A stretch of DNA of 64,000 nt from Paludisphaera rhizosphaerae (GTDB taxonomy: Bacteria > Planctomycetota > Planctomycetia > Isosphaerales > Isosphaeraceae), in the NCBI RefSeq assembly GCF_011065895.1, contig NZ_JAALCR010000002.1:310001-374000 (forward strand). The letters are read 5' to 3'. Positions within the stretch are counted from its first letter, which is position 1; every line of letters begins with the position of its first letter. Below, piece by piece: positions 23,020 through 30,433 of this stretch. The notes under the pieces were generated by a model that was given only the letters and a program-made list of their open reading frames with translations, searched no databases and was not told the origin of the DNA. The position numbers and the translations under genes are program-made.

Positions 23020-24351
23020 TCAGCGCTGAGTTGAATCCCGGCGGGAGCGAGCGAGCATTTGTTCCAGGGGATCGGGCGTCCCTTCGGCGTTCTTGCGGAA
23101 CAGCCTTGCCGTGGGATCTTGCGCCCATCGATCAGCCGCGAGCCGAGGGAGCATGCGGTTGTAGAGCAGGGTCACCGATGATTTCGGGCGAGAGCCTCGA
23201 TGACGCTCGATCTCTTTGACGGCCTCGGCGAGCGGCCATCCCATGCTGGCGAACCGATACATACCGACCCAGGCCGGTGATCGGTCCATACTGGCGTGGC
23301 AATGCACCAGGACGGGCCAGTTGGCGGGATCGTCGGCCAGCGCCAGGGTCCTGGGAATGCTGTCGATGCCCGTCGGATCCTCGGGAGGCTGCGTATAACA
23401 GGCGATCCCGTTCTCGCGGGCGAACGCCTGTTCGTCGGGCCAATGCGGGCTGCCCTGACTGGTGAACTCAGGGAAGAGGTTGATGATCGTCTTGAACTGG
23501 TAACGGGGCTGGGCCAGCTTCAACCCAGCGTAGGTCGGCATCGCGCTAAGGTAGAGTCGACCCGGGATGATCTCCTTGAGCCTACCGATGGGACGCTGAT
23601 ACCAGAAGAGCCCCCGCCCCAGCACGTCCAGTCCGAGCGAAACGGCGATCAGCGCGACCGCGACGAACGCGCCTCGGCGTCTCACCGGGGCCTCGGGTGC
23701 GAGTCGCAGCATCGCCAGCGCCCAGGCGAGCACTCCCCACACGTAAACCCATCTGGGCCAGTACCCGAAGGGCTCACGATCGATCCAGGGCGTCTGACGG
23801 AGCACGATCAGCACCGCAGCGACGGCCATCAGAGCGAGGACGTTACGGCTCTTCGCCAGGGCGATGAGAGAACGAAATTCCCAGGGGCGCGCGGCCAGAC
23901 CCACGATCACGACCAAAGCAAGCGCGGAGAGCCCCAACGTTACGCGCTGAATTGAAGGCGCTCTGTCGTCGAAGATCGTCCGCCAGCCCAATCCATACCA
24001 GCCGTCGAGCAACGGGCCTGGAGTTGAGGCGTGCCAGAATGCCGTCAGAGAGAGAGCCAGCGCCGCATATCGTAGGCGGTTGCGAGGATCGCGAGCACAC
24101 CCCCAGGCCGACAGCACCAGGGCTGCGGAGGAGATGTAAACGGCCACGCAATCGATCGTGTCGCCAGCCTCAGCGAGTCGATACGCCGCCGGCGGGTATG
24201 TGTTGTAGGTCTGTCGTTCGACCCGTGGGAATTCCGGATCCACGTCGTGCTCATAGACGAGAATGGACCAAACCGCCGGGAGAGTGGCCAGAAGCAGGAA
24301 GATCCAGGGCCACATGCCCCGCCGGTCGGAATGCTCGATTGGCTCGGTCAA
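23020..24351 (-). CDS. Membrane protein with C-terminal dual-specificity/tyrosine phosphatase domain
   Basis: A 443-residue fusion. The first roughly 260 residues contain about seven hydrophobic helices, beginning MWPWIFLLLATLPAVWSIL. The remainder is a phosphatase domain of the cysteine type: it begins near GRLYLSAMPTYAGL and has a WPVLVHCHASMDRSPAW loop near residue 345-360, which is the HC-x5-R signature with catalytic Cys and Arg both present. The substrate could be phosphotyrosine proteins, phosphoinositide or a phospholipid. It lies 98 bases downstream of a kinase-like gene on the same strand, both next to the polysaccharide genes. Confidence 0.85.
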   Translation of the reverse strand: MTEPIEHSDRRGMWPWIFLLLATLPAVWSILVYEHDVDPEFPRVERQTYNTYPPAAYRLAEAGDTIDCVAVYISSAALVLSAWGCARDPRNRLRYAALALSLTAFWHASTPGPLLDGWYGLGWRTIFDDRAPSIQRVTLGLSALALVVIVGLAARPWEFRSLIALAKSRNVLALMAVAAVLIVLRQTPWIDREPFGYWPRWVYVWGVLAWALAMLRLAPEAPVRRRGAFVAVALIAVSLGLDVLGRGLFWYQRPIGRLKEIIPGRLYLSAMPTYAGLKLAQPRYQFKTIINLFPEFTSQGSPHWPDEQAFARENGIACYTQPPEDPTGIDSIPRTLALADDPANWPVLVHCHASMDRSPAWVGMYRFASMGWPLAEAVKEIERHRGSRPKSSVTLLYNRMLPRLAADRWAQDPTARLFRKNAEGTPDPLEQMLARSRRDSTQR

Positions 24352-26158: not shown

Positions 26159-27247
26159 ATGACCGGCGAGAGCGATTCAGACCTCGACTCCGAAACGACG
26201 GATCACCCGCGCAGGGCCAAGTCGGACCGACTGCTGGCGATCCTGGAGCCTTATAACCGGGTGGTCGTCGTCTCCCACGTCAATCCGGATCCTGACTCCC
26301 TCGCGAGTATGCTGGCGATCCGGGAACTCGTTGAAAAGTGCCAGCCGGGGAAACCCGTCGTCCTCACCGTGGACGGAATGATCGCCCGGGCGGAGAACCG
26401 GGCCATGGTGGAGATGATCCCCATCCCCCTGGTGCCCGTCAAAACGGTCGCGCTGGATCGTGAGACGGCGGTCGTGATGGTAGACACTCAGCCTCACACC
26501 GGTCGGCGGTCGAGCGAGAGCGCGGTCCCGCAAGTGGTCATCGATCACCACGAAACCGGCGGGGATCTGGAAGGGGTGCTCTTCCATGACATCCGGACGC
26601 ACATGGGGGCGTCCAGCACCATCGTGGCAGGCTACCTGCTCGAGCAGAAGGTAGTCGTCTCGCCGCAGTTGGCGACCGCCCTGCTCTATGGCATCGAGTC
26701 CGAGACGACCGGGTATCCTCGAGAAGCGTGCTCGCTCGACGACGGCGCTCTGGTCTGGCTCTTTCCAAGAGCCGATAAGGAACTGCTGGCGCGGATTCGG
26801 AACCCCAGGCTGCCGCAGAGCCACTTCGCGACGTTCCACCGAGCCCTTTCCAACGCATTCCTCTACCGCGATCTGATTTTCGCCTGGTGCGGGACGATCA
26901 CCCAACCGGACATCGTCGCTGAGGTCGCCGACTTCTTTGTTCGCTTCGATCAGGTAAACTGGGTCCTCTCCGCCGGCCTGTTCGAGGACGGCTTGAAACT
27001 GTCGCTTCGCGCGACGGGTCTTGGCGGCGAGGCCGGCGAAGTGCTCCGGGAAGTACTCGAGGGAATGGGGAACGGCGGGGGCCACGACAAGCGAGCCGGA
27101 GGGCTCGTTCAGCTGGCCGACGCTTCACCCCGGGCTGTGGAGGGAGTACTTACCGAAATCCGCCGACGGCTGCTTGCCCGACTGGATATCGACGAACACC
27201 AGGGACGGAGATTGCTGGATGACGACAGCCGGATTCCCCCTCCCTGA
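26159..27247 (+). CDS. DHH family phosphoesterase (NrnA/RecJ-like)
   Basis: A 362-residue DHH/DHHA1 protein. The DHH part shows VVSHVNPDPDSLAS, MVDTQPHTG and VIDHHETG, which carry the metal ligands, and the DHHA1 part has GNGGGHDKRAGG near the end. Members degrade oligoribonucleotides, cyclic dinucleotides or 3'-phosphoadenosine 5'-phosphate; which one applies here is open. The pAp option is worth noting because sulfate activation genes lie 9 kb away. The start at 26159 is chosen because the upstream 47 codons show no family similarity. Confidence 0.85.
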   Translation: MTGESDSDLDSETTDHPRRAKSDRLLAILEPYNRVVVVSHVNPDPDSLASMLAIRELVEKCQPGKPVVLTVDGMIARAENRAMVEMIPIPLVPVKTVALDRETAVVMVDTQPHTGRRSSESAVPQVVIDHHETGGDLEGVLFHDIRTHMGASSTIVAGYLLEQKVVVSPQLATALLYGIESETTGYPREACSLDDGALVWLFPRADKELLARIRNPRLPQSHFATFHRALSNAFLYRDLIFAWCGTITQPDIVAEVADFFVRFDQVNWVLSAGLFEDGLKLSLRATGLGGEAGEVLREVLEGMGNGGGHDKRAGGLVQLADASPRAVEGVLTEIRRRLLARLDIDEHQGRRLLDDDSRIPPP

Positions 27248-28797: not shown

Positions 28798-29517
28798 GTG
28801 AAACCGCCGCTGGAAATCTATCTGCTCGGCGCGGTGGACTTCGCCGAGGTCCAGCAACTTCAACGACGGCTGGTCTATGAGCACGGTGAACGCGGCGGCG
28901 CAACTCTCTTGCTCTGTGAACACCCCCCCACGCTGAGTGTGGGACGCTCCGGCAGTCGCGCGCATGTCGCCGTCGACGACGGCGCTCTCGCTGCCATGGG
29001 GATTCGAACGCACTGGGTCAATCGAGGAGGGGGTTGCGTCCTTCATCTTCCGGGTCAACTCGTCGGTTACTTCATTTTTCCCCTCGACCCAATGGCTTCG
29101 CCGGCGATGGCGCACGTCCAACGACTCCAGCGAATTCTCCTCAACGTTCTTGAAGAGTTCGAGTTGAAGGGCGGCGTGCATCACGATCTCGGCGGCGTTT
29201 ACCTGGGCTCGTCGCGGGTGGCGTCGATCGGGGTGGCGGTTAGTCGAGGGATCGCCTATCATGGATTTACGCTCAACGTCGGTCCGTTCCTCGACCTGTT
29301 CGACGCACTCGTCGAGCCCGGTCCCGGCGGTTTGCTCCTAAGGCAGACCTCGATGGAATCCCGCCGTCAGCGGCCCGCGCCGATGCCGAAGGTGAGGGAG
29401 GCGATCGCACGCCACGTTGAGTCGGTGTTTGAGCTGGATCGGCATCACGTTTATACGCATCATCCGCGATTAAGGCGGAAGGTCCTGACCCATGCTTACG
29501 CTCCCAGTCCTGGATGA
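28798..29517 (+). CDS. LipB-like octanoyltransferase homologue lacking both catalytic residues
   Basis: A 239-residue member of the BPL/LplA/LipB fold. LipB normally moves octanoyl from acyl carrier protein to lipoyl domains. The family landmarks RGGG...HLPGQL and GFTLNVGPF are present. However, the catalytic Cys of the NPCG motif aligns with Gly in VEPGPGG (codon 29320-29322), and the catalytic Lys of the KIA(A/S)(I/L)G motif is Arg in SSRVASIG (29215-29217). Other cysteines are in LLLCEHPP and GGGCVL, and the latter sits in the substrate loop. The start is the GTG at 28798 with GAGGAAC upstream; the frame stays open from 28759. It overlaps lipA by 26 bases, so a lipoate role is still likely. 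Confidence 0.8.
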   Translation: MKPPLEIYLLGAVDFAEVQQLQRRLVYEHGERGGATLLLCEHPPTLSVGRSGSRAHVAVDDGALAAMGIRTHWVNRGGGCVLHLPGQLVGYFIFPLDPMASPAMAHVQRLQRILLNVLEEFELKGGVHHDLGGVYLGSSRVASIGVAVSRGIAYHGFTLNVGPFLDLFDALVEPGPGGLLLRQTSMESRRQRPAPMPKVREAIARHVESVFELDRHHVYTHHPRLRRKVLTHAYAPSPG

Positions 29518-30433
29518 ACGTCCGGACGAACGGGAACCCTCCTCATGCGGCTCCTCCGCTCCTCAGGTCGTCGAGATCGGCCGGAAGCCGAGGCGACTTC
29601 CTGAGTGGCTCAAGCGACCGATCCCTTCCGGCGGAGGGATGTACTTCGCGCAGAAGTTGGTCTCGGAGCTGGGGCTGGAAACGATCTGCGAGTCAGGCAA
29701 GTGTCCGAACCGCTCCGAATGTTGGAGCCGACGGACCGCCACCTTCATGATCCTGGGCGAGACCTGCACCCGCCCTTGCGGCTTCTGCGCCGTGAAGCGA
29801 GGCCGGCCGGAGGCGGTGGCCGAGGATGAGCCGGAGCGCGTCGCCGAAGCCTGCGCCCGCATGGGCCTCCGCCACGTCGTCATCACGTCGGTCACGAGGG
29901 ACGACCTGCCCGACGGCGGCGCCGATCACTTCCGCCGCTGCATCCTCGCCGTCCGCGAACGGACCGGCGCGACGATCGAGGTCCTCACGCCCGATTTCAA
30001 CGGACGGGAAGACCAGGTCGCCATCGTGCTCGAGGCTCGGCCCGAGGTCTTCAACCACAACATGGAGACGGTCGCCCGCCTACAGCAGTACGTCCGTCGC
30101 AAGAGCCAGTACGAGGTGAGCCTTCGCGTCCTGGAGGTCGCCAAGAAGATCAGCCCGGAGACCCGCACCAAGAGCGGCTTGATGCTCGGTCTGGGCGAAA
30201 CGACCGGCGAATTGATGGACACTCTGGCCGACCTTCGGTCGATCGACTGCAACCTGCTGACGCTCGGTCAGTACTTGCAGCCCTCGCCGAGGCACCTGCC
30301 TCCTGAGCGTTACCTGCCGCCGGCCGAGTTCGACGAACTCGGCCGTCTGGCTCGTCAGATGGGCTTCGACGAGGTCGCTAGCGGCCCCTTCGTTCGCTCC
30401 AGCTACCATGCCGATGAGATGGCCCGGGTCTGA
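29492..30433 (+). CDS. lipA: Lipoyl synthase
   Basis: Radical SAM enzyme that inserts two sulfur atoms into octanoyl chains bound to lipoyl domains. Both clusters are visible: the auxiliary one in [12 protein letters not shown] (C-x5-C-x5-C) and the radical-SAM one in [10 protein letters not shown] (C-x3-C-x2-C). Also conserved are [13 protein letters not shown] and the C-terminal [12 protein letters not shown]. The 313-residue length is normal, with an N-terminal tail of about 30 residues. It overlaps the lipB-like gene, which supports co-translation. Confidence 0.96.

Follow-up and report, generated by a model that had tools for sequence, protein, structure and literature searches.

The gene that precedes lipA in Paludisphaera rhizosphaerae encodes a LipB homologue without the catalytic Cys/Lys dyad, and its relatives in most of the class Planctomycetia lack the dyad as well. 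That this is a class-wide LipB pseudoenzyme, its catalytic residues lost in a lineage that is conserved and under selection, is well supported by alignment, distribution and substitution rates; that it serves as a helper of LipA is our best guess. To the fuller reading, in which LipM carries out the transfer and a class-specific pseudoenzyme of single origin helps LipA by binding an octanoyl or lipoyl substrate, we give about an even chance. The features discussed here lie in a window of 64,000 nucleotides (the whole stretch of DNA analysed) and are collected in Table 1, in which the gene is called pseudo-lipB.

Table 1. Positions in the window of pseudo-lipB, lipA and the residues considered in the text.
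Feature	Position	Strand	Detail
pseudo-lipB (LipB homologue without the Cys/Lys dyad)	28798..29517	+	239 aa, GTG start
lipA, lipoyl synthase	29492..30433	+	TIGR00510 362.9 bits, cut-off 310.25; overlaps pseudo-lipB by 26 bases
Arg140 at catalytic Lys position (E. coli K135)	29215..29217	+	alignment
Pro174 at catalytic Cys position (E. coli C169)	29317..29319	+	alignment
Cys40, aligned with acyl-pocket residue Val41 of E. coli LipB	28915..28917	+	alignment; pocket role as described in PMC9307952
R76-G-G-G-C80 substrate loop	29023..29037	+	Arg in 186/187, Cys80 in 81/187
His83 (E. coli His78)	29044..29046	+	kept in 182/187

The earlier note had described an intact frame overlapping lipA, and this holds: pseudo-lipB is open from its GTG to the TGA ending at 29517 (the longest frame begins at TTG 28759), and the ATG of lipA falls within its 3' end. 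The protein matches Pfam LplA-B_cat (104 bits) and the solved LipBs 2qhs, 2qht and 1w66, and its AF2 model (pLDDT 93, pTM 0.90) compares closely with two LipB structures, 2qhs of T. thermophilus (Z 30.9, with 209 residues superposed at 1.6 A) and 1w66 of M. tuberculosis (Z 27.8). The NCBIfam LipB models match it below their own cut-offs, TIGR00214 just below (81.1 bits vs 83.55), and some class relatives pass TIGR00214; LipL-type NCBIfam models are absent among its matches at E 0.001. The protein shares with the LipBs of E. coli, M. tuberculosis and T. thermophilus the fold, about 30% identity, the RGG loop, the EH and HxPGQ motifs and the place before lipA, but differs from them in the missing dyad, in the loss of the pocket Thr and the HG Gly, and in falling below the TIGR00214 cut-off. 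The catalytic domain of LplA has the same fold, but LplA has the Lys, whereas the window protein has neither this Lys nor a C-terminal accessory domain.

Alignment with E. coli LipB bears out the proposal that a LipB homologue next to lipA has lost both catalytic residues. The replacement of the Lys by Arg is as first described. The loss of the Cys stands too, but the residue taken to replace it, a Gly in VEPGPGG, was misplaced by one: with NPCG aligned to VEPG, the catalytic column holds Pro174. Much of the rest of the pocket is kept. The acyl-pocket positions of E. coli LipB are described as V41, T48, R71, T76, H78 and H150, with K135/C169 as the catalytic pair (PMC9307952), and in the window protein R71, H78, Q82 and H150 are kept as R76, H83, Q87 and H155, T48 corresponds to Ser47, T76 has become Val81 and V41 has become Cys40. 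The RGG loop (R76, G77), the pocket Arg, the first His and Q87 are all present, and Q87, like R76, is found in 186/187 dyad-less relatives. A His aligned with H150 of E. coli occurs in only 88/187 of them, and the pocket Thr in 0/187.

The same residues are missing in relatives across the class, far more consistently than chance would allow. Among 187 aligned dyad-less relatives (42 family loci and 145 other class loci, the latter 60 + 28 + 57), the catalytic Cys is found in none and the Lys in one (L184). A 188th sequence, L424 of genome G051, which was read by eye and is likewise followed by lipA, has neither, so that the orthologue comparison proposed in the earlier note gives Cys in 0/188 and Lys in 1/188. 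The dyad is complete in all 24 canonical LipBs of the comparison set, in L372, which lies outside that set and was read separately, and in 20/20 LipBs from the other classes that make up the phylum (19 by alignment, the twentieth read individually). Within 73 named loci, Cys or Lys occurs in the dyad columns only in L336, from a MAG labelled Bacteroidetes, a few rows being gapped there. Two further MAG contigs with dyad-less relatives, L320 and L334, are labelled Nealsonbacteria and Chloroflexi; perhaps they are mis-binned planctomycete contigs. No member of the Isosphaeraceae has a Cys within six residues of the catalytic Cys column. A Cys one residue before that column is present in 27/187 sequences, all from a Gemmataceae-like group (f3), and also in G051; in f3 loci such as L104, L107 and L225 it belongs to a conserved RCDGD motif, and it may be a shifted remnant.

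Pseudo-lipB was found in 42 of the 45 genomes of the window family, the Isosphaeraceae, a search at the level of the order returning the same 45. The family profile matches 184 of 248 sampled class genomes, three of which (G076, G097 and G208) carry a dyad-bearing LipB, leaving 181 with pseudo-LipB. All 181 of these sequences were read; 35 of the 42 family genomes lie inside the 248-genome sample and seven less complete ones outside it. In a tree of 59 rows chosen from 211 aligned, with the dyad columns left out, all 35 rows without the dyad group in a single clade (100/100) whose stem measures 0.85 changes per column, and the three dyad-bearing class LipBs fall outside it. Compared with the canonical set, the dyad-less sequences have lost the canonical T81, G84, V89, K140, P173 and C174, and commonly have C40 (93%), S53 (95%), W73 (82%), G79 (87%) and R200 (94%), each at most 25% in the canonical set.

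A decaying or mis-assembled lipB is hardly credible as an explanation. Its loss in some lineages and an in-frame TGA in a few copies (G006, G197 and G230) are what decay might look like, but its presence in nearly the whole family, the same residue losses in relatives and the constraint on its sequence speak against it. Within the genus (NG86; five genomes, 10 pairs, some dS values near saturation at up to 1.26) dN/dS is 0.11-0.27 for pseudo-lipB and 0.08-0.26 for lipA, which indicates that pseudo-lipB is under purifying selection. We thus reject decay and mis-assembly on conservation, selection and shared residue losses, in agreement with the original view that a gene kept in frame and coupled to lipA, as it is across the class, is not a decayed one. 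As to the absences, LipA is present in 59 of the 64 class genomes that lack pseudo-LipB, which makes the latter dispensable there; the remaining five have no lipA match either, which suits an assembly gap or a loss of the pair. No diverged LipB was found beside lipA in the 30 loci examined from these 59 genomes.

Linkage to lipA is nearly as widespread as the gene itself. lipA lies directly downstream on the same strand in 174/187 dyad-less loci (175/188 with L424), and two further loci have it at distances of 415 and 588 bases. In three cases the contig breaks off too early, and 8/187 loci have no adjacent lipA, the next genes differing among the seven of these that were scanned. The overlap of 26 bases is seen again within the window genus, as well as in further Isosphaeraceae genera. 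One locus, L076, was scored as lipA-adjacent on a weak match of 35% identity (L076:2225-2962) that no long open frame spans, and here lipA is perhaps broken or affected by assembly errors. In G076, which has no LipM match, a single open frame (L136, contig C1, 1402-3036) fuses a dyad-bearing LipB to LipA. Elsewhere in the window, a membrane protein encoded at 23020-24351 on the minus strand ends in a C-terminal HC-x5-R motif (VHCHASMDRS) that looks phosphatase-like by eye.

It is possible, if unlikely, that pseudo-LipB senses or regulates the supply of octanoyl or lipoyl groups, co-expressed with lipA and standing outside the LipA reaction. An acyl-binding fold without chemistry, coupled to an operon, would suit sensing, and W73, S53, G79 and R200, which became common on this lineage, could form a partner surface. 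However, the window protein contains no DNA-binding or signalling domain, and no regulatory RNA is apparent near the operon, with no Rfam match at gathering score for a structured RNA between window positions 27000 and 33000.

Perhaps another residue has taken over as nucleophile. The window protein has only two cysteines, 40 and 80. The Cys of GGGC (Cys80), put forward in the earlier note as the substitute, is not supported and was rejected: it is Cys in just 81/187 relatives and is Thr or Val in 5/42 Isosphaeraceae loci. Cys40 would be the better candidate, being Cys in 42/42 family sequences and in 174/187 class relatives (175/188 with L424). If the protein were still an acyltransferase, its nucleophile would have moved, most likely to Cys40 of the acyl pocket; this conservation, a retained fold and a pocket preserved in large part agree with such a view. 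However, the Lys is lost together with the Cys, Cys40 is itself missing in 13/187 relatives, and a Cys at this position also occurs in 6/24 canonical LipBs, so that its presence is not by itself a replacement. Moreover, position 40 is described as lining the acyl tunnel (PMC9307952), which does not obviously place it at the thioester carbon. Taken as a whole, we find a relocated nucleophile distinctly improbable.

If pseudo-LipB does not transfer octanoyl groups, another protein must be considered for this task. Exactly three genes with an LplA/LipB domain are present in 41/45 family genomes, and the two further ones of the window genome answer positively the search suggested in the earlier note, for an LplA or a second LipB. 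One product (L003) is LipM-like, matching a B. subtilis LipM sequence at 36% over 169 residues with Cys and Lys aligned; the other (L001) is LplA-like and matches the LipL-type NCBIfam models weakly, below cut-off. LipM belongs to the same superfamily as the window protein, but the LipM-like protein, encoded by a separate gene, has both a Cys and a Lys, at positions of its own (30/30 family loci), and the window protein has neither. A LipM-like gene is present in 236/248 class genomes: pseudo-LipB occurs with LipM in 175 (134 of which also have the LplA-like gene) and without it in six, LipM occurs without any LipB in 61, three genomes have neither, and the three with a dyad-bearing LipB have no LipM. 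From these counts, LipM is likely the housekeeping octanoyltransferase of the class and pseudo-LipB an addition. A strict swap of LipM for LipB would fit the class, with its three dyad-bearing genomes devoid of LipM, but fails in the phylum: outside the class LipM-like genes are found in 101/255 genomes (the split into 37 and 255 for this count being made by hand), and LipM-like and canonical LipB occur together in 7/19 genomes with an aligned canonical LipB. The swap was therefore rejected, and LipM alone does not explain the loss of the dyad.

The other enzyme-like possibility is that pseudo-LipB passes octanoyl or lipoyl groups from one lipoyl domain to another, as an amidotransferase would, sharing this task with the LplA-like protein. 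There is a negative association between the two genes, the LplA-like gene being found in 138/181 genomes with pseudo-LipB vs 59/64 without (p 0.006, uncorrected for ancestry, and with a soft LplA-like count that includes 11 or so weak matches), and many bacteria with LipM and LipA are reported to be without the known amidotransferase LipL (PMC10332631). However, pseudo-LipB and the LplA-like gene are both present in the 134 genomes counted above, and four class genomes have LipM with neither of them. The catalytic Lys is described as common to LplA and LipB (PMC9307952), and it is gone from pseudo-LipB along with the Cys. We regard a shared amidotransferase task as quite unlikely. The earlier note had left the choice among an amidotransferase-, ligase- or binding-type variant; of these, binding fits best, and a ligase or amidotransferase reaction is less probable, since the Lys that LplA and LipB have in common is lost too.

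The scenario that fits best is a non-catalytic partner of LipA, derived from LipB. We infer an order of events in which pseudo-LipB would have arisen once, in Planctomycetia, where, with a LipM-type octanoyltransferase handling octanoyl transfer, the lipB copy before lipA would have lost its Cys/Lys dyad while the fold, its place in the operon and most of the acyl pocket were preserved. The protein would most likely bind the lipoyl product or an octanoyl group carried by ACP, CoA or a lipoyl domain, forming no acyl-enzyme, and would aid LipA as an escort, scaffold or sensor. A more specific and rather doubtful version gives Cys40 a part. Its position is equated with Trp37 in the lipoyl pocket of LplA (PMC9307952), and is one that we take to be at the far end of the acyl chain. 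As a class-wide LipA accessory, pseudo-LipB might take the octanoyl or dihydrolipoyl group into its pocket so that Cys40 lies near this end, where LipA inserts sulfur, and so present the chain, protect the product or form a mixed disulfide with it while sulfur is being inserted. Binding by an inactive LipB has a precedent in the E. coli K135A/C169A protein, which is described as binding C8-ACP (KD 36 uM) and also C8-CoA (PMC9307952). The LipB-LipA fusion of G076 also speaks for the partner scenario. Speaking against it are the class genomes that have LipA but no pseudo-LipB, the eight loci without an adjacent lipA, the six pseudo-LipB genomes without a LipM match, the co-occurrence of LipM-like and canonical LipB outside the class, the poor retention of the H150 and pocket Thr positions, and the Cys next to the catalytic column in f3.

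No description of this protein was found in the titles and abstract openings of the literature searched on LipB pseudoenzymes, lipoyl synthesis and planctomycetes. Pseudo-LipB looks like a naturally inactivated LipB that has been retained in the lipA operon over most of a class, and an inactive LipB kept in this way makes the question of non-catalytic helpers of lipoyl synthase a testable one. It also bears on annotation: the TIGR00214 cut-off is passed in 43/248 class genomes, in 40 of these 43 through a gene without the dyad, and these 40 assignments are likely misannotations. Pathway surveys could thus score a LipB route in genomes that probably rely on LipM for this step.
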